A stretch of 64,000 nucleotides of DNA, taken from Lachnospiraceae bacterium (lineage in GTDB: Bacteria > Bacillota > Clostridia > Lachnospirales > Lachnospiraceae). The stretch spans positions 11,524 through 75,523 of the forward strand of contig JAAVBZ010000029.1 in assembly GCA_014803415.1 (NCBI GenBank). Direction: 5' to 3'. Below are positions 23,964 through 42,827 of this stretch, in pieces. The translations under genes and the position numbers were made by a program. How positions within the stretch are numbered: position 1 is the first letter of the stretch; each line of letters begins with the position of its first letter. The notes beneath the pieces are model-generated. The model ran no database searches. It saw nothing but the letters and a program-made list of their open reading frames with translations, and was not told the DNA's origin.

Positions 23964-23972
23964 TGTTATAAT
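23964..23972 (+). promoter_or_regulatory. Extended -10 promoter of the GH53 lipoprotein gene
   Basis: TGT-TATAAT (TATAAT at 23967-23972) is an extended -10 element 34 nt before the ATG. No good -35 box is visible, which suggests activator dependence. Confidence 0.45.
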
Positions 23973-24006
23973 GTTTTATGTGATTTTAATTTGGGAGGAT
24001 CAGCTT

Positions 24007-25992
24007 ATGAAACGTATCTATAAAAAATTACTGGTGTTATGTATCAGTATCGGGCTTTGTGCCATGGCACTTTCAGGATGCGGACAGGATTCTGAGAGTG
24101 AGGCAGCTACCTTTCCGATGCCGGATGGTCCGGAGGAATCTACCATATATGTAGAGCCGGTAGCTGACATTTCTGATGATTTCATTCGGGGTATGGATGC
24201 GTCATCCGTACTCGTAGAGGAAAACAGCGGCGTTACATACTATAATTATGAGGGTGAAAAGCAGGATGTCTTTATGACATTGGCGCAGTCAGGAGTAAAT
24301 TATATCCGTATCCGTGTCTGGAATGATCCTTATGACGAAAACGGCAATGGATACGGCGGCGGCAATAATGATGTTGAGACTGCTATCGCGCTGGGAAAGC
24401 GTGCGACGCAGTATGGAATGAAAGTATGTATTGATTTTCATTATTCTGATTTCTGGGCAGATCCGAAAAGGCAGCATGCGCCTAAGGCTTGGGAAGGTAT
24501 GAAAGCCGATGAAAAATGCGATGCGCTTTATGAGTTTACAAAAGAGAGTCTTACGGAAATTCTGGACGCCGGCGTAGATGTGGGGATGGTGCAGATCGGG
24601 AATGAAATTAACAACGGTATGGCAGGAGAGGTATTTCTTCCTACGATCACAGATATGTTGAGATCAGGAAGCCGTGCGGTTCGGGAGATATCCCCAAAAT
24701 ATGGAAAAGATATCAAAATAGTTGTTCATTATACCAATATTGAAGATAACGGCTCCATTGACGGTCTTGTCTCCAATCTGGCACATGCAGACCTGGATTA
24801 TGATATGATCGGTCTATCTTATTATCCTTTCTGGGATGGCTCAAACGAGAATATGCAGAAAGTTGCCAGGCATATTAAAGAAGCATACGGAAAAGAGGTT
24901 ATCATTGCGGAAACGTCTTATTGTTATACTTCAGAGGACGGCGACGGAAATGCAAATAGTCTTGCCGGAACGGATGATCTGGTGGATGGTTATGCCGCAT
25001 CCGTACAAGGACAGGCGTCTATGATCCGTGACATCTGTGCAGCAGCAAACGAAGTCGGCGTAGCCGGCGTGTTTTACTGGGAGGGAACGTGGATTCCGGT
25101 TGGAAAAGCGACTGACGACAATTCCCCGATATGGGAAAAATACGGAAGCGGCTGGGCAAGCAGCTATGCATCTGACTACGACCCGGATGACGCCGGATTA
25201 TATTACGGCGGCTGCTCCTGGGACAATCAGGCAATGTTTGACTTTGACGGCCATCCGCTTGCATCCCTAAATGTATTCAAGTATTTGAAATATGGAGCAA
25301 CCGCACCTCTTGCCGTAGATTCTGTTCCGGATATTTACGTCTCCTTAAGTGTGGGCAGTGACATTGTACTTCCCCAAATGGCGGATGTGATATACAATGA
25401 CCGCTCCGCTAATAAGCAGAGCGCCGTCACATGGGATGAAGCACAGCTGTCAGCGATTGATACAAGTAAGGGCGGCAGCTATGAGATTACAGGCTATCTT
25501 GAGGACGATATCACCGTTACCTGCTATCTCACTATAGATATGGTAAATTATGCAGTCAATCCGAGCTTTGAGGAAACCAATCTTTCCATGTGGAATGTGG
25601 CCTATGAAGGGAGCAGCAATCCCACTGATTTTCAGGTAAAATCGGATGACGCCCATACCGGTGATGTTGCATTCCATTTCTGGTCGGAATCTGATATGGA
25701 TTTCTCCATTGAGCAGGAACTGATCGATTTGGAGCCCGGAACCTATCAGCTTTCTGTTTATGCGCAGGGTGGCGATATGTCTGAAGATTCCGTATTGGAG
25801 TTATATGCAATAGTGGATGGAGAAGAATTGAGCAGTCCCTTTATGCTGACAACGTGGGCGGACTGGAAGAATCCCGTCATTCCAAAGATTACGGTAACTG
25901 ACGGAACCCTTACCATCGGCGTCCGCATGAAGTGCAATGCCGGCAGCTGGGGAACAGTAGATGATTTTGCCCTCAATAAGATTTCTGATTAA
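24007..25992 (+). CDS. GH53 endo-beta-1,4-galactanase lipoprotein with C-terminal galactan-binding region
   Basis: A 661-residue surface enzyme. The signal peptide ends in L-S-G-C (Cys25). The GH53 barrel spans about 45-420, with acid/base E200 in Q-I-G-N-E-I-N-N-G and nucleophile E302 in I-I-A-E-T-S-Y. A short bacterial Ig-like segment (about 430-505) precedes a beta-sandwich from N-P-S-F-E-E-T-N that resembles CBM61. It cuts beta-1,4-galactan of pectin side chains outside the cell. GGGAGG lies 8 nt before the ATG. It is convergent with, and overlaps by 4 nt, the GH42 gene that would degrade its products. Confidence 0.92.
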   Translation: MKRIYKKLLVLCISIGLCAMALSGCGQDSESEAATFPMPDGPEESTIYVEPVADISDDFIRGMDASSVLVEENSGVTYYNYEGEKQDVFMTLAQSGVNYIRIRVWNDPYDENGNGYGGGNNDVETAIALGKRATQYGMKVCIDFHYSDFWADPKRQHAPKAWEGMKADEKCDALYEFTKESLTEILDAGVDVGMVQIGNEINNGMAGEVFLPTITDMLRSGSRAVREISPKYGKDIKIVVHYTNIEDNGSIDGLVSNLAHADLDYDMIGLSYYPFWDGSNENMQKVARHIKEAYGKEVIIAETSYCYTSEDGDGNANSLAGTDDLVDGYAASVQGQASMIRDICAAANEVGVAGVFYWEGTWIPVGKATDDNSPIWEKYGSGWASSYASDYDPDDAGLYYGGCSWDNQAMFDFDGHPLASLNVFKYLKYGATAPLAVDSVPDIYVSLSVGSDIVLPQMADVIYNDRSANKQSAVTWDEAQLSAIDTSKGGSYEITGYLEDDITVTCYLTIDMVNYAVNPSFEETNLSMWNVAYEGSSNPTDFQVKSDDAHTGDVAFHFWSESDMDFSIEQELIDLEPGTYQLSVYAQGGDMSEDSVLELYAIVDGEELSSPFMLTTWADWKNPVIPKITVTDGTLTIGVRMKCNAGSWGTVDDFALNKISD

Positions 25993-28016
25993 AGCTTAGG
26001 GGGAAGACATAAGATACAAAAGTCCCAACCCTTAAGCGTTATGGTATCCCCCTTCGTGATGCCTGCATCCTGCATAAGCAGGACGCCGTCACGGCCGTGG
26101 TAAATGATGTTTTGTGCATCATCGGAATAATTAAAGTAATAGATGACTTCCTCTCCCAGATCATTGAAGCCCTGCTTGATAATGACAGGGTACTGCTCGG
26201 AGGGAAGTTCAATATGGGCTTCTCTGCATAAAAAGCAAAGAAGCTCTTTTAATACGGACACATCGAAATAGCAGCCTGCATAGGTTGCTGTTCCTTTTTG
26301 ATAATGATTGTGCGTAATTGCCGCATAATTGCCCCAGTGAGGGTGATGATAGGAAGCAAGAACATCTGCAGTGGATGGTTTTAACAGTTCCATCCAGTAC
26401 TGGACGCTGCCGGAAACTTTTTTCTTTGAGCCGGGGAGCGCAATATCTTTTAATGATACATTCACTGCGTCGGTAAACTGATCGTAAGTCATGCCGAACA
26501 CTTCCGTCAGGCCATGAGGCTGGTCATCTGCATAGATTTTTAACATGGAATCGGAGACTGCCGTTTTAAAAGTAGAAAGCAGATGTCCGCCCTGTTCTAC
26601 ATAGCTGCGAAGTGCGGCGATCAACGTATCGGGAGCACTATAAAGAGCAGGTGTTATTAAAACGGAATACTGGGAAAATAGTTCGGCGTCCCTATCACAC
26701 AGAATGTCACATTCGATATTTAACTGATAAAGCGCGTCATAGAGCCATCTGACAATATCATTATATGCTAAGTTCTCATGAACCGGAAACCACTTAAGCC
26801 CGGTGAGGGATTCATTGGTAAGGAGCAGGGCGACAGAAGCTTTTTTGCGCAGATTTTTCAGGCGGCTTCCATACTTTTCAAAATCAGCGCCGATCTGGCA
26901 AGCCTCCAGATACGTTGCATTTTCTTTCAGATTATGACTTAAAATGCCTTTCCAGTAGGATTCGATGGCATTGTGGATGGAGTGCCAGTGCCAGTACATA
27001 ACGGAGTTTGCGCCGTTTGCAAGGTGGCTGAATGCCTGCATGCGAAGCTGGGCAGGATAGGGGAGCCATCCGTGATTGCCCTGGGCCTGGGTTTCCAGGA
27101 TAAGATAGTTGTCCTTTTTGATGGAACGCGCAACTGCGCCTCCGAAGGAGATTTCTGTTCCGGTTAGATCCTGTGCGGAAGGGTGATAAATGTCACATCC
27201 CGTCACACTTAACGAGCGCGCTGCTTCCCACTGGTTCACTTCGGGCTGCAGTCCAAAAGAAAAGCCGCGCCAGTCAAAGTCAAAATTCTGAGTGATAAAC
27301 TGATCCGGGCGGATATATTCCTTTACAATACCGCTCTGCCAGGCAAGGAAATCCGTTACCAGCTTTCTTTGAAATTTCTGATATTCTGCGCCAAGGCTTG
27401 CGTTTATCGTACCGCGGACATCAGGAAAGTCCTCCCATGCATTAATGCGGTTGCTCCAGTAATCCAGCCCAAACTCGTGGTTGAGGGCATCTAAATCGTC
27501 ATGAAAAATGTCTTTCAAGCAGGCAATAAACTTATCTTGCGCGTAGGAACTGCAAGTATCATAGGATTTGGTTTCATTATCTAACTGAAAACCGATGATA
27601 TGGTCGTAAGGTGAAACTTCTTCCATCAGTCTGCGGATGATGATCTCGGCATGTTTCAGATACATGGGATGGGCAATATCCATGTTCTGTCTGGGACCGT
27701 AATGTCCCGCTCCGGCATGGGTTTCGGTAATGATATCCGGATATTTGGCAGCCAGCCATGTTGGAATCGCATAAGTAGGCGTGCCGACGATCACTTGAAT
27801 GCCGTGCGCTTTAGAAGCACGCAGCATACGATGCAGATGGGTGAAATCAAATACCCCCTCTTTTGGTTCCCATGTACTCCAAGTTGATTCCGCGATCCGG
27901 ATAACATTGATATGCGCTTTTTTCATCATTTCCATATCTGTTTCAATTCTGTCATATGGCAGATATTCATCATAATATGCTGCTCCAAATAATAGTTTAT
28001 CTGTTTTCATTCTCAT
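25989..28016 (-). CDS. GH42 beta-galactosidase
   Basis: A 675-residue cytosolic enzyme. The catalytic barrel has acid/base E148 in Q-L-D-N-E-T-K and nucleophile E308 in L-I-L-E-T-Q. The trimerisation domain and the short C-terminal beta domain follow, giving full family length. It releases galactose from beta-1,4-galacto-oligosaccharides. The ATG at 28016 follows AGAAAGG by 6 nt. It is divergent from a LacI regulator, with that regulator's operator in the shared intergenic region, so both should be repressed together and induced by galactan products. Confidence 0.93.
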   Translation of the reverse strand: MRMKTDKLLFGAAYYDEYLPYDRIETDMEMMKKAHINVIRIAESTWSTWEPKEGVFDFTHLHRMLRASKAHGIQVIVGTPTYAIPTWLAAKYPDIITETHAGAGHYGPRQNMDIAHPMYLKHAEIIIRRLMEEVSPYDHIIGFQLDNETKSYDTCSSYAQDKFIACLKDIFHDDLDALNHEFGLDYWSNRINAWEDFPDVRGTINASLGAEYQKFQRKLVTDFLAWQSGIVKEYIRPDQFITQNFDFDWRGFSFGLQPEVNQWEAARSLSVTGCDIYHPSAQDLTGTEISFGGAVARSIKKDNYLILETQAQGNHGWLPYPAQLRMQAFSHLANGANSVMYWHWHSIHNAIESYWKGILSHNLKENATYLEACQIGADFEKYGSRLKNLRKKASVALLLTNESLTGLKWFPVHENLAYNDIVRWLYDALYQLNIECDILCDRDAELFSQYSVLITPALYSAPDTLIAALRSYVEQGGHLLSTFKTAVSDSMLKIYADDQPHGLTEVFGMTYDQFTDAVNVSLKDIALPGSKKKVSGSVQYWMELLKPSTADVLASYHHPHWGNYAAITHNHYQKGTATYAGCYFDVSVLKELLCFLCREAHIELPSEQYPVIIKQGFNDLGEEVIYYFNYSDDAQNIIYHGRDGVLLMQDAGITKGDTITLKGWDFCILCLPPKL

Positions 28017-28088: not shown

Positions 28089-28109
28089 TATAATAAGAAC
28101 AACCGTTTG
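28089..28109. promoter_or_regulatory. -10 box and LacI operator CAACCGTTTG
   Basis: TATAAT at 28089-28094 is the -10 box of the LacI gene. The operator CAACCGTTTG (28100-28109) follows, at the expected transcription start. It fits the LacI-family palindrome CAAnCGnTTG with central CG, and the flanking ACAACCG and TTGCGC are shared with the site at 29251. Its place between the divergent GH42 and LacI genes suits control of both. Confidence 0.7.
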
Positions 28110-28167
28110 CGCTGTTCCGTTTAAATTTTACCATGGAAAAAAAGAAAGGTAAAGAGGTGTTGGAAGG

Positions 28168-29145
28168 TTGGCAGAGGATAGAAATTTAACAATTGCAGAT
28201 ATTGCCGAAGAACTCGGTGTGTCAAAAACCACCATATCACGCGCCATTTCCGGCAAAGGACGTATCAGTGACAAGACGCGGGAGCGGGTGCTGCAATATA
28301 TTGAGGCGCATCATTATACGCCGAATGTGATTGCAAGGGGACTGGCGCAGTCCAGAACTTATAATATCGGTTTGGTGATCCCCGGCGATTACAATATCGT
28401 GGAACTTCCTTTTTTTCAGAATTGTATGCTGGGTATCAGTAATGTAGCGTCTTCCATGGGTTATGACGTATTAATATCCATTGTTACTGCAGAAGATATT
28501 ACAAGCCTTAAGCGTATCATTGTGAATCATAAAGTAGACGGCGTCATTTTAACGCGAACGCTGATCAAGGACGCTCCGGCAGCTTATCTGAAAGGAACAG
28601 GGATTCCGTTTGTTACCATTGGCAGCTTGCCCGACCCTGCTATTGTACAGATTGACAATGCCCACAAAAGAGCCTGCAAGGAGATGACGCTGCGTCTGTT
28701 TTTGCAGGGGATAAAGAACATTGCTCTGATCGGCGGCAGCAAGGATTATGTGGTGACGGGAAATCGTCTGCAGGGCTTTTTAGATGCTTACAAAGAAAGC
28801 GGACAAGAGCCGGATGAAGAGCATATTTATCTTGATGTGGAAAATGCCCAAAAAGTAGAGCATATTGTAGAAAAACTGCTTGCGGAAAAGGTGGAATGTA
28901 TCATCACGATGGATGACTATTTGTGCGCGCAGGCTCTTCGCAGTCTGCAAAAACATAAGATAGAAGTACCAAAACAGATGAAAGTTGTTTCTTATCATGA
29001 CGGTTCTTATCTGGAGGAAGGTATTCCCACAATTCATTTTGATATAGAAGAACTGGGAGAGATGACATGCAGGACGCTCCTTAAAATGATAGAGGGAGAA
29101 GACGTGCGATCATGTATATTGCCGGGATATCAAATAATCATGTGA
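28168..29145 (+). CDS. LacI-family repressor of the galactan locus
   Basis: A 325-residue repressor. The helix-turn-helix is at residues 8-30 (I-A-D-I-A-E-E-L-G-V-S-K-T-T-I-S-R), followed by the hinge and a ribose-binding-like effector domain (about 65-325). TTG at 28168 is the only start candidate in frame before the helix-turn-helix; AGAGGTG lies 8 nt upstream. It sits between the GH42 gene and the 613-residue-protein operon, and a matching operator precedes each. The inducer is probably galactose or a galacto-oligosaccharide. Confidence 0.9.
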   Translation: MAEDRNLTIADIAEELGVSKTTISRAISGKGRISDKTRERVLQYIEAHHYTPNVIARGLAQSRTYNIGLVIPGDYNIVELPFFQNCMLGISNVASSMGYDVLISIVTAEDITSLKRIIVNHKVDGVILTRTLIKDAPAAYLKGTGIPFVTIGSLPDPAIVQIDNAHKRACKEMTLRLFLQGIKNIALIGGSKDYVVTGNRLQGFLDAYKESGQEPDEEHIYLDVENAQKVEHIVEKLLAEKVECIITMDDYLCAQALRSLQKHKIEVPKQMKVVSYHDGSYLEEGIPTIHFDIEELGEMTCRTLLKMIEGEDVRSCILPGYQIIM

Positions 29146-29211: not shown

Positions 29212-29260
29212 TTGACAATAAATGGATAGTTTGCTATTCTAACGCTTGGACAACCGATTG
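29212..29260 (+). promoter_or_regulatory. Promoter and LacI operator CAACCGATTG
   Basis: TTGACA (29212-29217), 17-nt spacer, TATTCT (29235-29240). The operator CAACCGATTG (29251-29260) covers the expected start of transcription and lies in a longer palindrome, ACCGAT-N5-ATCGGT. It shares ACAACCG-N-TTGCGC with the site at 28100, so the same LacI repressor should control both. Confidence 0.8.
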
Positions 29261-29340
29261 CGCATCGGTAAAAATGAAGGTTTTGCCGAAAAGGCGCAAA
29301 ATGGGGCGAAATGAAAAAAGTGAAAGGTAAGGTAGGCAAC

Positions 29341-31182
29341 ATGGATAATAAGTTTATTGTAAACATCATCCATCGTCCGGAGATGGTTCCTGAATATGCG
29401 GAGAAGGTGACCGGACACGGTAAAGAAGAAGATATCGGCAGAGAAGCGCTGCTGACAGAATCGTTGGACATTTTTAAGACACAGCAGTCTATTGCACACA
29501 AGAATGGGCTTAAGACAACCATTCAGATGACGTATGCTTCTTTATTTAATGATGAAGCAGTTGAGCTTGCAAAAGCAGACCATGAGAAATACGGAGATGA
29601 AATAGCATTGTCTTTATTAGGACTGCCTTGTAAGGAATTTCGTGAAAAATATAAGACGAAAGATTTTTGTATCTGGATGTTTTCCATGGAAGACAAGAAA
29701 TCTATCGTAGATGATGTATTCGGAAAATTTCATGATCGTTTCGGCTTTTATCCGGAATCTACAGGCTCTTATTATATGGATGCGGATCTTGTAAATTACA
29801 TCAAAGAGAAATATCCGATGGTAAAATGTGCGGTTGCAACCTGCTGGGAAGAGGGACCGAAAGCTTATCATACCTGCAACAATTCCTGGTACACATTTAT
29901 GGATGGAGGTCCATGGGCACCTTGGATTCCCAGTAAACAAAATGTACATGCACCGGCGGCAAATGAGGCAGAAGACAGCGGTATCGTTGCAATTCCGCAC
30001 TTGTCCCGAGACCTGCTTGCATGTTATGACGGAAACGGCTCCAATTTTGGAACCCATCCGCAGAATGTGCTGCGCGGTATGATCTATGATTCCAAAACAT
30101 GGGATTTCCCGTATCTGTATAATTTGATCGACCAGTATCGTGATCTGGCAAAATATAACAATGGCTATGCTTACAATATGATGTTCGTAGGACCCGGCTG
30201 GATGAACAAAATGGGACGTTGGGAAGCGCCTTATGAGCTGCTTTTAAAGTCTTATGAGGACGGCATGGCATATTACGGTCAACTGAAAAAAGAGGGTCAG
30301 CTGGACGATATGACGATGGCGGAATTTGCTGATTATTATCGAAAGAAGAAAACATTGACTGAGCCGGAATGCGCTCTTTGGAGAGATATTTTATACGGTT
30401 CGGACAAGCAGCTTTTCTGGTACTGCGACCCGTATATGAGAGTCTGTGCAAATATGGATCAGGGCGGCGCCATCGTGGACTTAAGACCTTATGCAGCGAA
30501 ACTTGAGTGGCCGGTAGGTATTGGTACGAAGCACGTAACGGATGCTTCTTATCCCTTCTTGATTCAGGAGAAATACAGAGCAGGATACTTCACACACTAT
30601 GCCGGAGAAGGTACGGTAAGAAGTGCAAAACTGACTTATAAAGGGGAAGAAGTGGATCTGTGCCTGTGCAGAACGAAAGCGCATTTTTCCAAAGAGGGTA
30701 AGACAAGAATCCTGACATTAGACCCTGTTACGATCGAGTTTTATGATCTGACTGTAGAATTACAGACAAAGATGTACTTTGAAGAGGGCAGCTCTAATAT
30801 TAAGATCGAAAGAAATATTCTTAAGATGAGCGATCCTTCCGCAGAAGTGGAATTGAATGAATATATGGTGGCATGCTATGGTACAACAGAATATTCCGAA
30901 GATATGAGCAATATTCTGTTAACCTGCACAAACGGCTTTGATAAAAAAGAAATCAAATATGAGTACAAATGCCGTGAAGAGCAGATGGAGAGTGCTGCAG
31001 AAGTTATCGCTGTCATTCCGGAAATTGAGACAAGAGTCTCCTTAAGCTGTAAGAAGAAAGAAGCCATCGGCTACATCAAAGAGGGTTATGCGTTTTCACC
31101 CATGTTTACATTAGGCTATACGACCAAGTTAAAAGATAAGGAGGTATTTGCGACATGGCTCAATCTGGCAAAGGCAAATTAA
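29341..31182 (+). CDS. Unrecognised 613-residue protein, possible carbohydrate-active enzyme
   Basis: I do not recognise a named family. The N-terminal 350 residues alternate beta-strand- and helix-like segments and are rich in Trp, Tyr, His and acidic residues (W-E-E-G-P-K-A-Y-H, M-D-G-G-P-W-A-P-W, F-G-T-H-P-Q). Their order is reminiscent of deacetylase/GH57-like barrels. The C-terminal 250 residues look like a beta-sandwich, as in many glycosidases. There is no signal peptide, so it is cytosolic. The ATG at 29341 is preceded by AAGGTAGG; 29311 is an alternative start. It is the first gene behind a LacI-controlled promoter, followed by a zinc-ribbon protein and a cytosolic GH53, which strongly links it to galactan use. 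Confidence 0.75.
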   Translation: MDNKFIVNIIHRPEMVPEYAEKVTGHGKEEDIGREALLTESLDIFKTQQSIAHKNGLKTTIQMTYASLFNDEAVELAKADHEKYGDEIALSLLGLPCKEFREKYKTKDFCIWMFSMEDKKSIVDDVFGKFHDRFGFYPESTGSYYMDADLVNYIKEKYPMVKCAVATCWEEGPKAYHTCNNSWYTFMDGGPWAPWIPSKQNVHAPAANEAEDSGIVAIPHLSRDLLACYDGNGSNFGTHPQNVLRGMIYDSKTWDFPYLYNLIDQYRDLAKYNNGYAYNMMFVGPGWMNKMGRWEAPYELLLKSYEDGMAYYGQLKKEGQLDDMTMAEFADYYRKKKTLTEPECALWRDILYGSDKQLFWYCDPYMRVCANMDQGGAIVDLRPYAAKLEWPVGIGTKHVTDASYPFLIQEKYRAGYFTHYAGEGTVRSAKLTYKGEEVDLCLCRTKAHFSKEGKTRILTLDPVTIEFYDLTVELQTKMYFEEGSSNIKIERNILKMSDPSAEVELNEYMVACYGTTEYSEDMSNILLTCTNGFDKKEIKYEYKCREEQMESAAEVIAVIPEIETRVSLSCKKKEAIGYIKEGYAFSPMFTLGYTTKLKDKEVFATWLNLAKAN

Positions 31183-31373
31183 ATTACAGGTGTCCTTCCT
31201 GTTTTATGAGAGACTTGGATATTGATATGTTCTATGATAAAGAAAAAGATGAATATCATTGCATCCGCTGTCAGTATGTAGGAACGGAAAAGGATATTTT
31301 AGAGAAAAACGAAATGGTACGTTTCCGCTATAGAGATGCGATGAAGCGGTTTACGAAGTTTGATTTCGATTAA
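31155..31373 (+). CDS. Mini zinc-ribbon protein, 72 residues
   Basis: Two Cys pairs, C13-P-S-C16 and C36-I-R-C39, 19 residues apart, form a probable zinc ribbon. The tail is Arg/Lys/Phe-rich. The gene overlaps the end of the 613-residue-protein gene by 28 nt in another frame, with TAAGGAGG before its ATG, and is followed after 11 nt by a GH53 gene. Overlap plus a strong site indicate genuine, coupled translation. Function unknown: a nucleic-acid- or protein-binding accessory is conceivable. A second zinc-ribbon gene occupies a similar place in the alpha-galactoside operon. Confidence 0.75.
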   Translation: MAQSGKGKLNYRCPSCFMRDLDIDMFYDKEKDEYHCIRCQYVGTEKDILEKNEMVRFRYRDAMKRFTKFDFD

Positions 31374-31384
31374 AGAGGTGACAG

Positions 31385-32491
31385 ATGAAGTTTCTGAAAG
31401 GTGTGGATATTTCTACCTTAAAAGAGGTAGAGGATCTGGGTGGAAAGTTCTATGATGAAGGAGTGGAGAAAGATGCGCTTACTATTTTGCAGAGCTATGG
31501 CGTGAACGCAGTGCGTCTCCGTTTATGGAACGACCCCTATACAGAGGACAAAAGTCCCTATGGAGCGGGTACAAATGATTTACCCACCACTATTGAGCTG
31601 ACGAAAAGAGCCCTGGAAAAAGGCATGGAAGTGCTTTTGGATTTTCATTACAGTGATTTCTGGGCTGACCCCGGAAAGCAGAGAGTGCCTAAGGCGTGGC
31701 GGGGTATGAATCTGGAACAGTTAGAGGAAGCGGTTTATCGCTATACGAAAGAAACGCTTGAGGAAATGAAAAGGCAGAATGCCTTTCCCACATTGGTTCA
31801 GGTAGGAAATGAAGTGACAAACGGTATTCTCTGGCCTTACGGTCAGGCACCGGATTTTGATAATCTTATCCGCCTCCTTAATGCAGGGATTAATGGCGTC
31901 AGGGCGGTCAGTAAGGACATGCGGATCATGATTCACCTGGATAACGGTGGAAATAACGCTCTGTACCGGGAATGGTTCGACCGTTTTATGGAAAAAGGCG
32001 AGGATTTCCAGATCATCGGGCTCTCTTACTATCCGTTCTGGAATGGAACATTGGATGATCTGAGCAATAATATGAATGATATTGCGGTTCGTTACGGGAA
32101 AGAATTGATGATCGCCGAAGTATCTATGGGCTTTACAATGGAGGACTATGCCGCTTATGAGAAACTTTTGCCGCATGAGCGGAAAGGAATGGCAACAAAA
32201 GGCGAATTGACAGAGAAAATAGAGTATCCGATGACAAAAGAGGGACAGAAAGCTTTTCTGGAGGCTGTGTTTACACGTTTAAAACAGGTTCCGAATGGTA
32301 AAGCAAAAGGATATTTCTATTGGGAAGCTGCATGGATTCCGGTAGCCGGAAGCGGCTGGGCGTCCGACGCAGCAATTGCCTATATGAATGAAAAGGGACC
32401 GGGCGGCAATGAGTGGGCAAATCAGGCGTTATTTGATTATGACGGTAATGCGCTGCCGGCGCTGCAGGCAGTCAGGGATTTCACTTTTTAA
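31385..32491 (+). CDS. Cytosolic GH53 beta-1,4-galactanase
   Basis: A 368-residue single-domain GH53 without signal peptide. Catalytic residues are E143 in Q-V-G-N-E-V-T-N-G and E245 in I-A-E-V-S-M. It is clearly related to the exported GH53 at 24007 (shared F-H-Y-S-D-F-W-A-D-P and G-L-S-Y-Y-P-F-W). An internal galactanase would shorten imported galacto-oligosaccharides for the GH42 enzyme. The ATG follows AGAGGTG by 6 nt. Its 3' end overlaps the convergent LacI gene by 11 nt. Confidence 0.92.
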   Translation: MKFLKGVDISTLKEVEDLGGKFYDEGVEKDALTILQSYGVNAVRLRLWNDPYTEDKSPYGAGTNDLPTTIELTKRALEKGMEVLLDFHYSDFWADPGKQRVPKAWRGMNLEQLEEAVYRYTKETLEEMKRQNAFPTLVQVGNEVTNGILWPYGQAPDFDNLIRLLNAGINGVRAVSKDMRIMIHLDNGGNNALYREWFDRFMEKGEDFQIIGLSYYPFWNGTLDDLSNNMNDIAVRYGKELMIAEVSMGFTMEDYAAYEKLLPHERKGMATKGELTEKIEYPMTKEGQKAFLEAVFTRLKQVPNGKAKGYFYWEAAWIPVAGSGWASDAAIAYMNEKGPGGNEWANQALFDYDGNALPALQAVRDFTF

Positions 32492-33476
32492 CGGGAGCCG
32501 TTGAATTTCTGATAATAAGCTGCGGACGCAGCAGATTTTTGCAGACGGAAACGTGATTGATCAGAGAATTCAGCGTATAAAAACCGCATTTACCCAGCTC
32601 GATCCGATCTTGCCTGATGGTGGTAAGAGGCGGATTGAGTTTTGCGGACAGCGGAATATCATCAAATCCAATGACGCTTACATCTTCCGGTACTTTGACG
32701 CCCAGCAGACGGCATTCTTCGATAACGCCGGAAGCGAGTAAGTCGTTGGCGCATACAATGGCGGTTGCACCAAGGGAGAGTAAATTGGCAACATGATCTT
32801 TGGCAGCGGCGGCTACGAAATAACCGTAAGGCATCATCTGCTCACTGACCTCAAGACCGTGGAGCGTCATACTGTCAATAAAGGACTGGCGGCGCTGCTC
32901 GGTTATCATGGAATGTTCTGAGCCGTTGAGCAGAGCGATCTTCCTATGCCCGAGACGTATCAGATGTTCAATGCCGTCATCAATGCCCTCAAAGCTGTCA
33001 GTTCCAATATAGCAGACACTCGGATTCTTGCGGATATAGTTATCAAAAAGCGTGGTGGGTATGGAAGTGTTGTGTAATTGAGCCATCCAGGGGTCTTTCA
33101 GGGCGAAACCTACCAAAAAAGCGCCTATATAGCCATTTTTCAGCATGTAGGTATCATATCGTTCACTTGCCTGAAATTCAGGGGTGACGGGCAGTACGGT
33201 AACGCCGCAGCGTGCCGGATAGGCAGCCTGACGGAAACCCAGAATAATATCGTAGCCGAATTGTTCCGGAGTTTTATATTCCATATTTTCAATAAAAATA
33301 CAGAGCTTCTGATTATCCTTTGTGCGCATCTGCTTAGGCCTATATCCTATTTCTACGGCGGTTTCAAGTATCGTTTGGCGGAGCTGCTCACTGATATCAT
33401 TGGCGCCGTTCAGACCTTTTGAGACAGTTCCTGTTGAAATACCCAGTTTGTCCGCAATATCCCTAATGGTAGCCAT
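32481..33476 (-). CDS. LacI-family repressor, probably of the malto-oligosaccharide operon
   Basis: A 331-residue repressor with the N-terminal helix-turn-helix I-R-D-I-A-D-K-L-G-I-S-T-G-T-V-S-K and a typical effector domain with G-F-D-D-I-P-L-S near the end. AAGGGAAG precedes the ATG. It is divergent from the MalEFG-type importer, its likely target, across 262 nt that contain a promoter, a palindrome and a cre-like site. It differs clearly from the galactan-locus LacI protein. The effector is unknown. Confidence 0.9.
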   Translation of the reverse strand: MATIRDIADKLGISTGTVSKGLNGANDISEQLRQTILETAVEIGYRPKQMRTKDNQKLCIFIENMEYKTPEQFGYDIILGFRQAAYPARCGVTVLPVTPEFQASERYDTYMLKNGYIGAFLVGFALKDPWMAQLHNTSIPTTLFDNYIRKNPSVCYIGTDSFEGIDDGIEHLIRLGHRKIALLNGSEHSMITEQRRQSFIDSMTLHGLEVSEQMMPYGYFVAAAAKDHVANLLSLGATAIVCANDLLASGVIEECRLLGVKVPEDVSVIGFDDIPLSAKLNPPLTTIRQDRIELGKCGFYTLNSLINHVSVCKNLLRPQLIIRNSTAPVKK

Positions 33477-33547: not shown

Positions 33548-33633
33548 AGAAATTATAATTGGCATATTTAACAAAAATTACCAGAGAAAATAGGCATTAA
33601 TAACAAAAAAAAGTGTTAAAAATGAAAGTGAGG

Positions 33634-33738: not shown

Positions 33739-35088
33739 ATGAAGAAAAGAGTATTAGCATTGTTACTTACAGCAACAATGGTTGCTTCCTGTCTTGTTGG
33801 ATGCGGTGGAAAATCTTCCAACGATGCAGCAGGCAGCGACAGCAGTGCAGCAACAGACAGCAGCGCAGCTACAGATGACAGCAGCGCAGCTACAGACGAC
33901 AGTGCAGCAGCAGATGACAGCAGCGCTGAGGCTATTGATTACGGCTCAGGCAACATCACAATCTGGGTAGCTGACAATGTTGTTGATTTTACAAAGACCA
34001 CAGCTGAAGAATTTTTAGCAGCAAATCCTGATTTTTCAGGTTATACAGTAAGTGTTGAACCTGTAGGTGAAGGCGATGCAGCTGGTAACATGATCACTGA
34101 CGTTGCAGGCGGCGCAGATATTTACGGTTTCGCACAGGATCAGATCACACGTCTTGTTTCTGCAGGCGCATTAGCTCCTGTTGTTGGCGATAACGCAGCA
34201 TTCGTAACCGAGCAGAACGATGCAGGTGCAGCAAGCGCAGCAGTAGTTGGCGATGTAACTTATGCATATCCTATGACATCTGATAACGGTTACTTCTTAT
34301 ATTATGATAGCTCCGTGATCACCGATCCTACTTCTTTGGAGCAGATCCTTGCTGACTGTGAAGCAGCAGGTAAGAATTTCTACTTTGAGATCAACTCCGG
34401 ATGGTATCAGCCGGCATTCTTCTTTGCTACAGGATGTACATTAACATATGATACAGATGATAACGGTAACTTCACAAACTGCAACATCGATTATGTATCC
34501 GATAAGGGTCTTGTTGCATTAAAAGAGATCATTGAAGTTGCTTCTTCACCTGCATTCCAGAATGGTTCTTCCGTAGATAACGGAACAAATATCGCAGCTA
34601 TCGTTGACGGTACATGGGATTCAGATCCTGCTAAGGCAGCATTCGGTGACAACTATGCTTGCGCTAAGTTACCTTCCTTCGAAGGTTCTGACGGTCAGAC
34701 ATATCAGCTCAGCGGTTTCGGCGGATTCAAATTATTAGGTATCAAACCTCAGGAAGAAGCTGGAAAATTAGCAGTATGCCATGCACTTGCTCAGCATCTG
34801 ACAAGCACAGAAGTACAGCTTGCTCGTTATCAGGCAGCTGGTTGGGGTCCTTCCAACGTAGCAGCTCAGCAGGATTCTGCTGTTCAGGCTGACGAAGCAT
34901 TAGCTGCTTTAGCATCTCAGCTTGCTTACACAATTCCTCAGGGAAATTATCCTGGAGATTACTGGAATCTTGCAACAGCTCTTGGTGATGATGTGAGAAC
35001 AGGTACTCTGAACGCATCTACAAGCGATGATGACTTAACAGCAGCCCTTCAGGCATTCCAGGATACTTGCATTTCTTATGCACAGTAA
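33739..35088 (+). CDS. MalE-type sugar-binding lipoprotein
   Basis: A 449-residue binding protein. The signal peptide ends in L-V-G-C (Cys22). A low-complexity Asp/Ser/Ala/Thr linker with repeated D-S-S-A-A-T (about 34-65) tethers the binding fold, which starts G-N-I-T-I-W-V-A-D. It resembles maltose/maltodextrin-binding proteins. Codon use is highly uniform (many GCA, GAC, GGT codons), as in abundantly expressed genes. It heads an operon with two permeases and a GH13 lipoprotein. Malto-oligosaccharides are the likely ligand; galacto-oligosaccharides are possible because of the galactan locus next door. Confidence 0.9.
   Translation: MKKRVLALLLTATMVASCLVGCGGKSSNDAAGSDSSAATDSSAATDDSSAATDDSAAADDSSAEAIDYGSGNITIWVADNVVDFTKTTAEEFLAANPDFSGYTVSVEPVGEGDAAGNMITDVAGGADIYGFAQDQITRLVSAGALAPVVGDNAAFVTEQNDAGAASAAVVGDVTYAYPMTSDNGYFLYYDSSVITDPTSLEQILADCEAAGKNFYFEINSGWYQPAFFFATGCTLTYDTDDNGNFTNCNIDYVSDKGLVALKEIIEVASSPAFQNGSSVDNGTNIAAIVDGTWDSDPAKAAFGDNYACAKLPSFEGSDGQTYQLSGFGGFKLLGIKPQEEAGKLAVCHALAQHLTSTEVQLARYQAAGWGPSNVAAQQDSAVQADEALAALASQLAYTIPQGNYPGDYWNLATALGDDVRTGTLNASTSDDDLTAALQAFQDTCISYAQ
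33838..33927 (+). repeat. Short in-frame repeats encoding the lipoprotein linker
   Basis: Units close to ACAGATGACAGCAGCGCAGC recur about four times and encode D-S-S-A-A-T-type repeats. They form the flexible tether between the lipid anchor and the binding domain. Repeat number may vary by slippage. Confidence 0.85.
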
Positions 35089-35159: not shown

Positions 35160-35214
35160 TGTATTATAATAATAAACAGCATTCAGAAATACACAGTTGG
35201 GAGGGATCTTCAAG

Positions 35215-36579
35215 ATGGGAAAATTTTTCAGAGGAGTCGGAGATGATTTAAAAGAAATCGGTCTGACGTTTAAAGAGGGGGATTGGAAAACCAAAGTCTC
35301 CTTTCTGATCATGGGTTTCGGGCCTCTTTTACGCAAACAGTTCCTGCGTGGAATAGCGCTTCTGGCGATAGAAGCAGCGTTTATTTATTACATGGTCAGT
35401 TTTGGCTGGGGTTATCTGAAAGATATAGGTACCCTGGGAACTGTCGCAAGAGTTATGAATAATGATGGAACTTACACTTATAATGATAACAGTTTCTTTA
35501 TCCTGATGTATAGTATTTTGACTATTATGATCATAGTAGCATTTATTGCTATGTGGCGGATCAATGTCAGGGTAAACCGAAATGAGGAGAAGCTGATCGT
35601 AGCCGGCAAGCCGCTTGCTACAGTAAAACAGGATTTATATTCCCTGTTAGATTCTCATTTCGACAAGACATTATTAACATTACCCGTTTTAGGCGTTTTT
35701 ATATTTACTGTACTGCCGATTCTTTTCATGATCTGCGTAGCGTTTACGGATTATGATGCGAACCATCAGCCTCCCACCAATCTGTTTTCATGGGTAGGAT
35801 TAGAGAACTTTAAGAATCTGGTTTCCTTTGGTACATCGGGATTTGGATCTACATTTTTAATCGTACTGGGTTGGACATTGATATGGGCATTTTTTGCAAC
35901 ATTCCTGACATACTTCTGTGGTATGGGAGTTGCAATTCTGATAAATAAAAAGGGAATTAAATTCAAAAAGCTCTGGAGAACCATTCTGGTTATGACGATC
36001 GCTGTTCCCCAGTTTGTATCCCTTTTGTATGTGTATAAGATGTTTGCAAACGACGGTCTTATCAACACATATCTGATGAAATGGGGTTGGATCAGTTCAG
36101 CAATTCCGTTCTGGACCAATGCAACTCTGGCTAAAATTACGATTATCGTAGTAAACCTTTGGATCGGTATTCCTTATACGATGCTGATCATGACAGGTCT
36201 TTTGATGAATATTCCGGAAGACTTATATGAAAGTGCAAGAATTGACGGAGCAAATGGTTTCCAGATGTTTAAGAGCATCACACTTCCTTATATGTTCTTC
36301 GTAACGGGACCGTTCCTGTTGACACAGTTTACAGGAAACCTGAATAACTTTAACGTAATCTATCTGTTGACGCAAGGTGGACCGCAGTCTATGGCGCTTT
36401 CCAACAAAGCAGGTTATACGGATCTGCTGGTTACCTGGCTGTATAAGATGACAGTAAATGATACGAACTACCGTATGGCTGCTGTTATCGGTATTATGGT
36501 ATTCATTGTTACGGCAGTAATCTCACTGGTTGTATACGGTATGCTGCCATCCGTAAGAGATGAGGAGGGATTCCAATAA
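35215..36579 (+). CDS. MalF-type permease with long N-terminal extension
   Basis: A 454-residue membrane protein, longer than the usual 290-300. The first 160 residues contain two extra helices and a cytosolic segment; the transport core starts around F-D-K-T-L-L-T-L-P-V-L-G. The EAA loop reads E-S-A-R-I-D-G-A-N-G-F-Q. MalF proteins of maltose and galacto-oligosaccharide systems often have such extensions. ATG at 35215 is preferred because GGGAGGG lies 8 nt upstream; an in-frame TTG at 35197 precedes that site. The next permease overlaps by 1 nt (TAATG). Confidence 0.9.
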   Translation: MGKFFRGVGDDLKEIGLTFKEGDWKTKVSFLIMGFGPLLRKQFLRGIALLAIEAAFIYYMVSFGWGYLKDIGTLGTVARVMNNDGTYTYNDNSFFILMYSILTIMIIVAFIAMWRINVRVNRNEEKLIVAGKPLATVKQDLYSLLDSHFDKTLLTLPVLGVFIFTVLPILFMICVAFTDYDANHQPPTNLFSWVGLENFKNLVSFGTSGFGSTFLIVLGWTLIWAFFATFLTYFCGMGVAILINKKGIKFKKLWRTILVMTIAVPQFVSLLYVYKMFANDGLINTYLMKWGWISSAIPFWTNATLAKITIIVVNLWIGIPYTMLIMTGLLMNIPEDLYESARIDGANGFQMFKSITLPYMFFVTGPFLLTQFTGNLNNFNVIYLLTQGGPQSMALSNKAGYTDLLVTWLYKMTVNDTNYRMAAVIGIMVFIVTAVISLVVYGMLPSVRDEEGFQ

Positions 36580-37442
36580 TGAGTGGTTCTATGAAAACAA
36601 AAAGAGCGATAAGTACTGCAATTACTTATGCAGTATTGATTATTCTTAGTATTATTTGGCTGTTCCCGTTCGTGTGTCTGTTCTTACAGAGTCTCCGTTC
36701 TTATACAGAGGGAGGCGGCGGTATGGTAGATTATCTGCTGCCGAAGCAGTTCTCGCTGGATTCTTATGTGTGGCTGTTCAGTGAAGAATCAAAGTTCGTG
36801 CGCTGGTATGGGAACACTATAACGATTGCTATATTTGTAGCATTATTGCAGACGATCGTTGTATTATGCGTAAGCTATGCGTTGTCCCGTATGCGTTTTA
36901 AAGGACGTACTTTCCTGATGAGATTTTGGCTGGTGCTGGGTATGTTCCCGGGATTCCTTACCATGATCTGTCTTTATTTCCTGTTAAAGCAGTTTGGCAT
37001 GACACAGGCTGGAGCGATTCCGGGCTTGATCTTGATTTCCGTAGCAAGTTCCGGTATGGGTTATTATGTAACGAAAGGTTATTTCGATACGATCCCGAAA
37101 GCCCTTGATGAGGCGGCAAGAATCGACGGTGCTTCCAGGGCAAGAGTATTCTTTACCATGATCATTCCGATGTCGAAGCCGATCATCATTTACGCAGCGT
37201 TGGTTGCTTTCATGGCTCCATGGTGTGATTATGTATTTGCTTCTTACGTTGCTTTCGGTTATTCCGACAGCTACAACGTAGCGGTAGCGCTGCAGAGATG
37301 GGTATGGACCAACGATTTCCAGGGCTTCTTTACAAGGTTCTGTGCGGGCGGTATTCTGGTAGCCGTACCGGTTACGATCCTCTTCATGTGCTTGCAGAAG
37401 TACTATGTAGAAGGTGTTACAGGCGGTGCTGTAAAGGGCTAA
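36579..37442 (+). CDS. MalG-type permease
   Basis: A 287-residue membrane protein with six helices, the EAA loop E-A-A-R-I-D-G-A-S-R-A-R and the C-terminal G-G-A-V-K-G. Its start overlaps the stop of the MalF-type gene by one base, so the two are translationally coupled. It completes the importer channel. No ATPase gene follows: a terminator and then a GH13 lipoprotein gene come next. Confidence 0.92.
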   Translation: MSGSMKTKRAISTAITYAVLIILSIIWLFPFVCLFLQSLRSYTEGGGGMVDYLLPKQFSLDSYVWLFSEESKFVRWYGNTITIAIFVALLQTIVVLCVSYALSRMRFKGRTFLMRFWLVLGMFPGFLTMICLYFLLKQFGMTQAGAIPGLILISVASSGMGYYVTKGYFDTIPKALDEAARIDGASRARVFFTMIIPMSKPIIIYAALVAFMAPWCDYVFASYVAFGYSDSYNVAVALQRWVWTNDFQGFFTRFCAGGILVAVPVTILFMCLQKYYVEGVTGGAVKG

Positions 37443-37530: not shown

Positions 37531-39171
37531 ATGAGAAAAAATAACAGATGTCACCGGACGATAGCGATACTTCTGGCACTCTGCATGCTGCTTTTGACAG
37601 CATGTGGAGGAAAAGGCAAAGGTGGAGATACAGCCGATGAGATTCCGTTAAATGTAATAGATGATAATTACCGCACTTATTATGAAGTATTTGTCTATTC
37701 CTTTTATGACAGTGATGGAGACGGTATCGGCGACTTGCAGGGGTTGATCTCTAAATTGGATTATATTAATGACGGGGATGATACTACAGATACGGATCTG
37801 GGCTGTAATGGTATCTGGCTGATGCCGATAAACCCGTCTCCTACATATCATAAGTATGATGTTGTGGACTATTATGATATTGATCCCGTTTACGGCACAC
37901 TGGATGATTTTAAAGAACTGCTGGCCGTTTGTGATGAAAGAGGGATCAAGGTGATCATGGATCTGGTGTTGAATCATTCTTCTTCACAGAATCCCTGGTT
38001 TTTGCAGGCATGTGATTATCTGAAAAGTTTAGGGGATGAAGAACCCGATGCAAAGGAATGTCCTTATTTTGAGTATTACAATTTCTCGAAAGAGCCGCAG
38101 TCAGGCTATAGCCCGGTAGCGGGAACAGACTGGTACTATGAGGCGCAGTTTTGGAGTGAGATGCCGGACTTAAATCTGGGCTGCGAAGCACTTAGAAACG
38201 AAATAGAGGATATTACAAAATACTGGCTGGATATGGGTGTGGGTGGTTTCCGTCTGGATGCGGTGAAAGAGTACTATTCAGGAGATACACAAAAGAATGT
38301 TGATTTCCTGCGGTGGTATACTGATGTTGTCAAGTCGCAGAAAGAAGATGCTTATCTTGTAGGAGAGGCATGGCTTAATATCAATGAATATGCTAAGTAT
38401 TACGAGAGCGGAATGGACAGTCTTTTTAATTTTGCATTTGCCGGTGCGGAAGGTGTGATCGCTAAAGCCTTAAACAGTCCGTCTTCCGAAAAATACGGCA
38501 CTGTCAATCAATCATTACAGAGTACATTCGGACAGTATAATGAGGAGTATATTGACGCACCTTTTTATACCAATCATGATATGGCCAGAAGCGCAGGCTA
38601 TTATGTGGGAGAAAACTCCGAAAATAAAACAAAGCTTGCCGGCGCCATGAACATCTTTATGAGCGGCTCCGCTTTTATTTATTACGGAGAGGAACTGGGC
38701 ATGAAAGGTTCCGGTAAGGATGAAAATAAGCGTGCGCCGATGTATTGGAGTAAGAATGCCGACAGTGAGGGTATGTGTGACGGACCTGCGGATATGGACG
38801 ATTTCGAGATGAAATACGATAGCCTGGAGGAACAGGAAAAAGACGATAGCTCTATTTATCAGTTTTATAAAAATGCTGTTAAGATCCGTAACCAGAATCC
38901 GGAGATCGCAAGGGGCAGCGTAAAGTATTTGATGGATATTTCCGATAAGAATTTCTGCGTTTTGAAGAAAACATGGAATGACTCTGAAATCATATTGATC
39001 TTCCATACAGGAGCAGAGACGGAGACGATTGATGTAAGCAGTCTTACCGTAAACGGAGAAACACTTTCTGAAAAGAGTATCCGCGGGCTATTGGAAAGCG
39101 GCGAGGAACACGTTGCCATGAACGACACGCAAGTGACAATGCCGGGATATTCGGTGGTGGTATTTAAATAG
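37531..39171 (+). CDS. GH13 alpha-amylase-family lipoprotein
   Basis: A 546-residue surface enzyme. The signal peptide ends in L-T-A-C (Cys25). All GH13 landmarks are present: region I D-L-V-L-N-H-S, region II G-F-R-L-D243-A with the nucleophile, region III V-G-E279-A with the acid/base, and region IV T-N-H-D350. The opening F-Y-D-S-D-G-D-G-I-G-D-L-Q-G is common in oligosaccharide-active subfamilies and includes a calcium-type loop. It should cleave alpha-1,4- or alpha-1,6-glucans at the surface and feed the importer encoded just upstream. Exact specificity is open. Confidence 0.9.
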   Translation: MRKNNRCHRTIAILLALCMLLLTACGGKGKGGDTADEIPLNVIDDNYRTYYEVFVYSFYDSDGDGIGDLQGLISKLDYINDGDDTTDTDLGCNGIWLMPINPSPTYHKYDVVDYYDIDPVYGTLDDFKELLAVCDERGIKVIMDLVLNHSSSQNPWFLQACDYLKSLGDEEPDAKECPYFEYYNFSKEPQSGYSPVAGTDWYYEAQFWSEMPDLNLGCEALRNEIEDITKYWLDMGVGGFRLDAVKEYYSGDTQKNVDFLRWYTDVVKSQKEDAYLVGEAWLNINEYAKYYESGMDSLFNFAFAGAEGVIAKALNSPSSEKYGTVNQSLQSTFGQYNEEYIDAPFYTNHDMARSAGYYVGENSENKTKLAGAMNIFMSGSAFIYYGEELGMKGSGKDENKRAPMYWSKNADSEGMCDGPADMDDFEMKYDSLEEQEKDDSSIYQFYKNAVKIRNQNPEIARGSVKYLMDISDKNFCVLKKTWNDSEIILIFHTGAETETIDVSSLTVNGETLSEKSIRGLLESGEEHVAMNDTQVTMPGYSVVVFK

Positions 39172-40598: not shown

Positions 40599-41477
40599 TC
40601 AGATCCTTTTTGGGGTTTCATAAACCACACGTACGAAATCGTACTGAGTGGACTGTTTTCTGAATTTGTCAGGAGTAATTCCTTTTGAAGCCTTAAATAC
40701 TTTCCCAAAATAATTATTATTAGAGTAACCGACCATGCGGGCAATGTCCTGAATCGTGTGATCTGAGTTCGTGGTCAGCAAGCGGCAGGCCTGGGAAATG
40801 CGGAGTTCTTTTAGGTATTTCCCAGGCGTGATGCCGTATTTTTTATGAAATTCTTTACACATATAATATTTTGAAATTCCGGCGTGTTCTGCCACTAAAT
40901 CCAGATTCAGATCTTCCATATAATAGTTTTGGTCAATGTAGGCTTTGACATGGTCTATTTTTGATATTTCATCTTCAGAGCAAGTGAGGGCGTATACAGT
41001 AAAATCCATCCATAAGTTGTAAGCGGCTTTCGTATTCTCGAAAAAAGTCTTGATCTCATTTCTGACTGCCCTTTCATAAATTGACATCATCTGGTCTGCC
41101 AGACCTGATTCTTTGGTAAGATGTACGACCGGGCCTTTAACCCGGTAAATTTTCCGTATTAATGGAAGACATTCTTTGGAAAATTCCAGATAAAGGATTT
41201 CCCAATAGGAAGAATGGGGAGGCAGATAATAATGGTTTTCACCGGGAATATCAATGATAAAAGCATCACCGGGAAGGATGGAATAGAGGATCCCATCCAC
41301 TTCAAGGGCGCCTTCTCCTTCAATACAGTACTGAATCAGACATAGACTTTGATTCCGATTTCTACTGTTCCAAGAGTAATCATGAGAATCAATATAGTGG
41401 TGTCCCAGGCCTACTAACGCCAAAAGAGGCAGATCAGAAGAAAAAGAAAAGCCTATGGAATGGTTGGATTGTTTCAT
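40599..41477 (-). CDS. AraC-family regulator of the alpha-galactoside operon
   Basis: A 292-residue regulator. An N-terminal cupin-like sugar-sensing domain (about 25-140, with G-E-G-A-L-E-V-D-G and L-P-G-D-A-F-I-I-D) precedes a C-terminal AraC double helix-turn-helix (about 190-285, ending N-Y-F-G-K-V-F-K-A-S-K-G-I). This matches MsmR/RafR-type activators of alpha-galactoside operons. It is divergent from the GH27 gene, and paired TTACCAT repeats lie in the shared intergenic region next to that gene's promoter. Activation by raffinose, melibiose or galactose is likely. Confidence 0.9.
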   Translation of the reverse strand: MKQSNHSIGFSFSSDLPLLALVGLGHHYIDSHDYSWNSRNRNQSLCLIQYCIEGEGALEVDGILYSILPGDAFIIDIPGENHYYLPPHSSYWEILYLEFSKECLPLIRKIYRVKGPVVHLTKESGLADQMMSIYERAVRNEIKTFFENTKAAYNLWMDFTVYALTCSEDEISKIDHVKAYIDQNYYMEDLNLDLVAEHAGISKYYMCKEFHKKYGITPGKYLKELRISQACRLLTTNSDHTIQDIARMVGYSNNNYFGKVFKASKGITPDKFRKQSTQYDFVRVVYETPKRI

Positions 41478-41601: not shown

Positions 41602-41681
41602 AAAATCAATAATAGAAGAGAGGAAAAATAAAGAATATAAGCAAGAAATTACTTTTATAATATGAAAAAGGGGGTATGGAA

Positions 41682-42827
41682 ATGATGAGAAAAGCAATGT
41701 GCGCAGTTCCTCCTATGGGTTGGAATTCATGGAATACGTTTACGGAGAACATTAATGAAAATGTAGTGAAAGAAACTGTAGATGCCATGAAAGAACAGGG
41801 CTTTCTGGAAGCCGGATATGAATATGTGGTAATTGATGATTGCTGGAGCCTGAAAGAGCGTGATTCAGAAGGTAAGCTGGCAGCAGACCCTGAGAAATTT
41901 CCAAGTGGGATGAAAGCGCTGGCAGATTATGTGCATGCAAAAGGATTCAAATTCGGCATGTACAGCTGCTGCGGAACCAGAACCTGTGCAGATTATCCGG
42001 GAAGTTTTGAACATGAATTTGAAGATGCAAAACAGTTTGCGCAGTGGGGCGTTGATTATTTAAAATATGATAATTGCTTTAAACCCCAAAATCAGGATGG
42101 GAGAACACTGTACCGCAGAATGGGCATGGCGCTTGCAAATTCCGGCAGAGATATCGTATTTTCCGCATGCCAGTGGGGGACAGACTCCGTACATGAGTGG
42201 ATTCGTTCGTCTGGCGCTCATTTATTCCGTTCTACTGAGGACATTAACGATTCCTGGAATTCCATCAGGGATATTGCCTTATCCCAGATAGATAAGCAGG
42301 CTTTTTCGGGAGCCTATTGCCATAATGACATGGATATGCTGGTAGTCGGTATGCACGGAAAGGGTGGAAATGAATATATTTCTGCCGGAGGATGCACCGA
42401 TGAGGAATACCAGACGCATTTTTCACTTTGGGCAATGATGAATTCACCGCTGATGATCGGCTGTGATGTCAGAAATCTCAGTGAAGAGACCAAAAAGATC
42501 CTGTTGAATCAGGATATCATTGCGATCAATCAGGATATAGAGTGCAGGTCCGCGTTCCGGTTAAACTGCGTATCAAATAGCCCGGACGTATTTACATTAG
42601 TGAAATTTTTATCTGATGGAGATATAGCAATTGCCATGTTTAATATGGGAGATATCCCGGCTATGGTTACGGTAGACTTTTGGGATATGGGACTTACTGT
42701 CAGTTCAGGAAAGAATCTCAAGTTTTATGATTGTGTAGAACATAAGGATATAGGCTTAAAGAAGGAAAGATACTCGGAGACAGTAGCTGCGCATGGCTCT
42801 AAAATTTACAGGTGTAAGGTGGTATAA
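41682..42827 (+). CDS. GH27 alpha-galactosidase
   Basis: A 381-residue cytosolic enzyme. It opens with the family hallmark P-P-M-G-W-N-S-W-N. The nucleophile is D130 in Y-L-K-Y-D-N-C and the acid/base D187 in R-S-T-E-D-I. A small C-terminal beta domain follows. It removes alpha-1,6-galactose from raffinose-type sugars or galactomannan fragments. ATG at 41682 (or 41685) has AAGGGGG at a good spacing; the ATG at 41676 is too close to it. It is the first gene of the alpha-galactoside operon. Confidence 0.93.
   Translation: MMRKAMCAVPPMGWNSWNTFTENINENVVKETVDAMKEQGFLEAGYEYVVIDDCWSLKERDSEGKLAADPEKFPSGMKALADYVHAKGFKFGMYSCCGTRTCADYPGSFEHEFEDAKQFAQWGVDYLKYDNCFKPQNQDGRTLYRRMGMALANSGRDIVFSACQWGTDSVHEWIRSSGAHLFRSTEDINDSWNSIRDIALSQIDKQAFSGAYCHNDMDMLVVGMHGKGGNEYISAGGCTDEEYQTHFSLWAMMNSPLMIGCDVRNLSEETKKILLNQDIIAINQDIECRSAFRLNCVSNSPDVFTLVKFLSDGDIAIAMFNMGDIPAMVTVDFWDMGLTVSSGKNLKFYDCVEHKDIGLKKERYSETVAAHGSKIYRCKVV

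Follow-up and report, generated by a model that had tools for sequence, protein, structure and literature searches.

Prebiotic fibres include galactan and galacto-oligosaccharides, and the Lachnospiraceae are important butyrate producers. In families GH57 and GH38 a barrel is joined to a mutarotase-like sandwich and the nucleophile stands after strand 4; to our knowledge, neither family has a small zinc-ribbon partner. Roseburia faecis M72/1, which carries a GH53-rich locus, is described as growing on type-1 arabinogalactan (PMC5320581), and the passages of that paper devoted to the Roseburia locus make no mention of a zinc ribbon or of a protein of the type that is the subject of this study, X613.

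We analysed a stretch of 64,000 nts (the window) from a Lachnospiraceae genome of 4.26 Mb (48 contigs, 97.4% complete, 9.0% contamination). The original prediction had placed an unrecognised protein of 613 residues, X613, at the head of a LacI-type galactan locus, and both the reading frame and its position were confirmed. By gene content, the surroundings correspond to a LacI-type ABC/GH53 galactan utilisation locus, with a LacI regulator, an operator-like site, an ABC transporter, GH53 and a beta-galactosidase (Table 1). The GH53 said to follow X613 was verified by Pfam, while its cytosolic location, also part of the claim, is read by eye from the N-terminus; by the same reading X613 is probably cytosolic too. 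Further downstream, an AraC-type regulator-like gene recognised by eye (40599–41477) is divergent from the alpha-galactosidase gene.

Table 1. Features of the X613 locus in the window, and distant cousins of X613 in other loci
Feature	Position	Strand	Remarks
GH53 with Ig-like domain	23971–25992	+	PF07745 E 1.1e-117, PF07532; secreted/lipoprotein by eye
GH42 beta-galactosidase	25989–28016	-	Divergent; PF02449 E 1.9e-66
Second operator-like site	28100–28113	+	2 mismatches; between GH42 and LacI gene
LacI-family regulator	28168–29145	+	Pfam LacI and Peripla_BP; likely regulator of X613
Sigma-70-type promoter	29212–29240	+	TTGACA-17-TATTCT, extended -10 (TG); scan score 10 of 12
LacI-type operator-like site	29251–29269	+	CAACCGATTGCGCATCGGT; just downstream of -10
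X613	29341–31182	+	613 aa, uncharacterised
Shine-Dalgarno motif of Znr	31138–31144	+	AAGGAGG, by sequence; inside the end of X613
Znr	31155–31373	+	72 aa, four-cysteine zinc-ribbon protein, CxxC...CxxC
GH53 (GH53c)	31385–32491	+	Endo-beta-1,4-galactanase-like; PF07745 E 7.2e-121; no obvious signal peptide
Second LacI-family regulator	32481–33476	-	Convergent with GH53; PF00356, PF13377
ABC solute-binding protein	33739–35088	+	PF13416 E 5.7e-19; lipoprotein by eye
Two ABC permeases	35197–36579, 36579–37442	+	PF00528
Alpha-amylase family protein (GH13)	37531–39171	+	E 3e-79; lipoprotein by eye; directly behind ABC transporter
Alpha-galactosidase	41676–42827	+	Melibiase_2 E 3e-71; adds to galactoside island
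Cousins of X613	L113 4457–5857, L114 5568–7985, L115 1758–3311, L116 4443–5978, L137 7568–9928

An in-frame ATG further upstream, at 29311, would lengthen X613 to 623 residues, as the ORF list has it; we prefer the start at 29341 because homology of the full-length relatives begins at residues 1–5. As had been stated, the protein belongs to no recognised family: up to an E of 1, searches gave neither a Pfam family, galactose mutarotase included, nor a match among PDB sequences, and the single NCBIfam line (12.7 bits, where the cut-off is 625; E 0.041) is attributable to chance. Lines to CTD kinase beta (PDB, X613 search, E 0.034) and, in one X613 relative, to GSHPx (E 0.18) were likewise treated as chance. 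None of the known families was matched confidently enough to speak for another function. Plasmid and phage collections contained no X613 match, none of 36 candidate stretches from viral contigs was related to it, and a literature search found no paper on it. The Trp/His/acid-rich motifs noticed earlier in the first half of the protein are present and invariant in the alignments.

Among 84,980 species genomes, at least 577 relatives of X613 were found, and we kept the best 80 of these, which are 84–96% identical to X613; named records among the 80 are mostly Lachnospiraceae, with some MAGs labelled otherwise. In the window, the first 28 nt of Znr are at the same time the last of X613. This overlap is exactly 28 nt in all of the best 80 (of at least 577), and Znr was present in each of the 78 loci among them with enough downstream DNA. 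Similarly, an ATG start with a Shine-Dalgarno-like motif within 20 nt accompanied Znr in 80/80, and its four cysteines were seen in 78, the other two being cut by the locus end; the length is 70–72 residues in 77 of these loci and 64 in L042, where the frame ends at a stop. That X613 and Znr are fused by a frameshift was considered and rejected by eye, since Znr has its own Shine-Dalgarno-like motif and ATG in all 80. The original prediction thus named the zinc-ribbon gene correctly but missed its fixed, overlapping partnership with X613. The pairing extends beyond the close relatives: in L112 the X613 protein is 38% identical and Znr 33% (tblastn, residues 11–67, E 1e-6), and in L138, which comes from a different family within the same order, the values are 36% and 43% with an overlap of 25 nt by the ORF caller. 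Hence the two genes either have an old association or were passed together from one family to another.

Divergence was measured in 20 loci that we picked from the best 80 of at least 577. The median pN of X613 was 0.074 at a pS of 0.77 (13 of the 20 loci saturated) and that of Znr 0.071 at a pS of 0.69 (7 saturated), compared with 0.215 at 0.79 for GH53c (20 saturated) and 0.282 at 0.75 for the LacI gene (11 loci, 8 saturated). X613 and Znr therefore share the same slow rate, about one third of the non-synonymous divergence of GH53c, as would fit a complex. Because synonymous sites are near saturation in these 20 loci, the high identity of X613 is explained by constraint and not by recent transfer: X613 is under strong purifying selection. 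Conservation so far above that of an adjacent glycoside hydrolase is, in our judgement, unusual for a glycosidase. Along the protein, conservation was 0.94–0.97 over the first 450 residues, except 0.89 at 301–350, and 0.79–0.81 over residues 501–600. Twelve X613 cysteines are invariant in all of the best 80 (of at least 577), and only Cys168 and Cys512 remain so in a 17-row set that includes divergent relatives.

The best promoter of the galactan locus had been announced in front of X613. A promoter is indeed there, but it is not clearly the best one, as five other sites also score 10 and one at 33548 on the minus strand scores 11; the 41 sites found in the window are barely above the number in shuffled sequences (mean 32.1, sd 5.9). 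The same promoter layout, searched as a regular expression, was found in 48 of the 78 relatives whose upstream DNA spans at least 260 nt (best 80 of at least 577). A LacI operator had also been expected at the start site, where CAACCGATTGCGCA lies at 29251–29264 and the palindrome ACCGAT-N5-ATCGGT at 29253–29269. This palindrome occurs once in the window, as an exact match, and 82 of 100 shuffles contain at least one match with up to 2 mismatches; taken alone it is weak evidence for an operator. With up to 2 mismatches allowed, the pattern CAACCGRTTGCGCA occurs three times in the window (8656, 28100 and 29251), a number that 3 of 100 shuffles reach. Stronger support than these shuffle counts comes from conservation, which bears out the expectation: ACCGNTTGCGCA lies within 400 nt upstream of X613 in 51 of 78 relatives (best 80 of at least 577). 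Among the other 27, eight have the site 3.3–6.7 kb upstream, X613 coming after transporter genes in several of them, and 19 have no site anywhere in the upstream stretch examined. On the far side of the unit, the second LacI gene occurs at the equivalent position, in the same orientation, in 24 of the 66 relatives that have 3.5 kb or more downstream (best 80 of at least 577), so that two LacI regulators can bracket X613, Znr and GH53. A relative of the GH13 gene was seen downstream of X613 in 19 of the same 80 loci, 61 of which have at least 7 kb downstream.

We then compared the galactoside context among relatives. A GH53c-type gene lies within 3 kb of X613 in 69 of 73 testable loci, and either GH53 query matches 74 of the 80 loci (best 80 of at least 577); the misses are L020, L058 and L077, with short downstream flanks, and L042, L055 and L068, despite longer ones. 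The X613 profile matched 42 of 299 genomes from the same family, and 39 of these were counted as X613 proper, with one distant match (G228) and two genomes carrying cousins only (G201 and G249) set aside, and with G227 and G403 counted as carriers though their match is split in two. GH53 (E below 1e-10) was present in 35 of the 39 carriers versus 33 of the 260 others (Fisher p 2.5e-22, relatedness not corrected). Six genomes with GH53 matches only near 1e-4 were scored negative, and the X613 and GH53 samples were taken as the same 299 genomes because size, sampling and listed handles agree. An even sample of 199 genomes across the phylum contained X613 only in the window's own genome.

The four X613 carriers without GH53 have other genes of this kind within about 8 kb of X613: melibiase-like genes in L117 and L118, GH2 LacZ and GH20 in L126, and, in L130, GH42 with a gene called GH2-like on the basis of its N-terminus alone. 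The theme of these loci is thus galactosides and related oligosaccharides, not galactan alone. Action on galactan-derived oligosaccharides, as originally proposed, is consistent with the placement of X613 among galactoside genes, but the substrate was probably drawn too narrowly, 4 of 39 carriers being without GH53. In the more divergent loci, the X613 gene adjoins an alpha-L-fucosidase gene (L112) or stands beside a BNR-repeat protein with a GH2 gene nearby (L138). Close homologues of X613 away from glycan genes were not encountered in the loci examined. The melibiase-like proteins of L117 (10343–12103, 586 residues, adjoining X613-Znr) and L118 (16896–18704, 602 residues, about 7 kb downstream) show weak Melibiase and GH31 similarity and are possibly another divergent galactosidase group.

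Five distant cousins of X613 extend the comparison (Table 1). Four of them (L113–L116) are only 17–21% identical to X613 in a multiple alignment; by profile, X613 matched these four and L137 with 98.9% probability (E 1.3e-17, 322 columns, residues 41–389), and in the reverse search the cousin profile found X613 of the window at E 3.6e-13. On this profile-profile similarity, X613 and its cousins form one informal superfamily. Two of the five cousins carry CHB_HEX_C and Fn3_assoc domains, one of these two also F5/8 type C, and their N-terminal part is mostly without Pfam cover. No Znr-like zinc-ribbon gene was found beside the cousins; L116 adjoins large genes that resemble glycosidases by eye. 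Residues N8, E87, D147, C168 and D224 are common to X613, L112 and four cousins in a 6-row alignment at about 20% identity, and the fifth cousin, L137, carries the aligned E87, D147, C168 and D224 too. These last four, by their conservation in the cousins and their position after predicted strands, are candidate active-site residues.

Residues 109–201 of the cousin in L116 touch the DUF3863 profile (PF12979) with 13.2 bits and E 0.039, the highest score of any cousin but under the cut-off of 27 bits. X613 itself has no match to DUF3863, nor has any of 17 X613-type proteins scanned; the cousin profiles found no PDB chain of this family, and a DUF3863 search of 60 relatives returned nothing, the control genomes being equally silent. 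We take 3LM3 to be a solved DUF3863 structure, which the cousin sequences may resemble. No assignment to DUF3863 was made from a single weak cousin match with no PDB match, and the link with X613 is only suggestive.

Structure prediction and a fold search had been proposed as checks. Two AlphaFold2 runs of X613 gave pLDDT of 59.4 and 60.5 and pTM of 0.48 and 0.55; the 80-row alignment barely raised the former value to the latter, and residues of about 165–300 are mostly under 50 and unreliable. Pooled from these two low-confidence models, strands are predicted near 5–11, 58–63, 87–91, 140–144, 162–166, 215–218 and 321–323. The models suggest an N-terminal beta/alpha barrel, then a mutarotase-like sandwich from about residue 425. 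The beta-sandwich-like tail foreseen from the sequence appears in both models and is more confident than the barrel. With Foldseek, the sandwich matched mutarotases (about 4–10% identity), YidC and galactosidase domains. The GH57 4-alpha-glucanotransferase 1k1x gave a long match in both runs, with an rmsd of about 22 Å and hence not a real superposition, and GH38 7ufu appeared in one run. The models are poor, and all query TM-scores are 0.27 or less. Profile comparison of X613 with GH38 and NodB gave 3.2% or less against up to 4.1% for unrelated controls, and is uninformative because the GH38-NodB positive control failed too.

From these data we favour, tentatively, the reading that X613 and Znr are a cytosolic carbohydrate-active enzyme and its obligate zinc-ribbon partner, processing imported galactose-containing oligosaccharides. 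Such oligosaccharides would enter by the neighbouring ABC transporter, and sugar import would relieve the LacI repressor; the promoter would then drive X613, Znr by coupled translation, and GH53. Znr may bind X613 via its zinc ribbon, and catalysis would take place at the C-terminal strand ends of the N-terminal barrel, where D147, proposed from position only, follows predicted strand 4 as the nucleophiles of GH57 and GH38 do. The C-terminal sandwich might complete the pocket or an oligomer interface. It is possible, if rather doubtful, that X613 represents a new CAZyme family, a beta/alpha-barrel enzyme that works only with a separately translated zinc-ribbon subunit, possibly by Cys168 catalysis, at a galactoside step so far undescribed in gut Lachnospiraceae. 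Since GH42 and the two GH53 could by themselves degrade galactan, the locus has no obvious need of another hydrolase.

The main rival is a non-catalytic role, because a glycosidase would be expected to be less conserved and because GH53 and GH42 are already present at the locus. X613 and Znr would here be an assembly, sensing or regulatory complex, for example presenting sugar to LacI or acting as a chaperone of cytosolic galactosidases. A protein conserved far more than GH53c and LacI over most of its length fits many contacts, the twelve invariant cysteines point the same way, and a small zinc-ribbon partner suits regulation. We nevertheless consider this unlikely: glycosidase-associated domains are found in two of the five cousins, the conserved acidic residues and Cys seem to follow predicted barrel strands, at low confidence, and the neighbouring enzymes differ by locus, so that no fixed client is visible.

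Less easily reconciled with the data is a carbohydrate esterase or deacetylase with a NodB-like barrel, which would remove acyl groups from imported galacto-oligosaccharides. The cousin pattern G-L/P-x-T ... E-I/L-G and the predicted strand order are, as we take it, reminiscent of NodB-type barrels, but inspection by eye shows no clear DD or HxxxH metal motif and the profile alignment reached 3.2% at best versus 3.8% for an unrelated GH53 control, which makes this quite improbable. A galactose isomerase, mutarotase or epimerase acting through the C-terminal sandwich appears very improbable: galactose mutarotases are among the top Foldseek matches of this confident domain and galactose is the common theme of the loci, but the domain is the least conserved part of X613, and its fold, with YidC ranking equally high, is also non-catalytic in other proteins. 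Finally, that a neutral passenger gene has recently spread by horizontal transfer, to which the patchy presence in 39 of 299 genomes of the family could point, is hardly credible, as it is refuted as the cause of the high identity by the nearly saturated synonymous sites of the 20 measured loci (median pS 0.77) and the X613-Znr order is the same in 80/80 of the best relatives.

A pair more conserved than the adjacent galactanase, yet with neither a Pfam nor an NCBIfam model, implies that annotation at present lacks a constrained step of the pathway. With its fixed overlap and four shared candidate residues, X613-Znr lends itself to direct testing.

Compared with described systems, X613 probably shares its domain order with GH57 and GH38, and 1k1x and 7ufu are among its Foldseek matches; it differs from them in TM-scores of at most 0.27, the large rmsd and the lack of a profile match of X613 to GH38. 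With galactose mutarotase (aldose 1-epimerase) it shares the predicted fold of the C-terminal domain, which is only one domain of X613 and its least conserved region. To DUF3863 it is connected through the L116 cousin, which touches that profile, the cousins being related to X613 by profile. At the level of the locus, the type-1 arabinogalactan locus of R. faecis and R. hominis is, in the passages describing it, GH53-rich like the window (PMC5320581), and two of the kept relatives (L069 and L080, among the best 80 of at least 577) are named Roseburia hominis.
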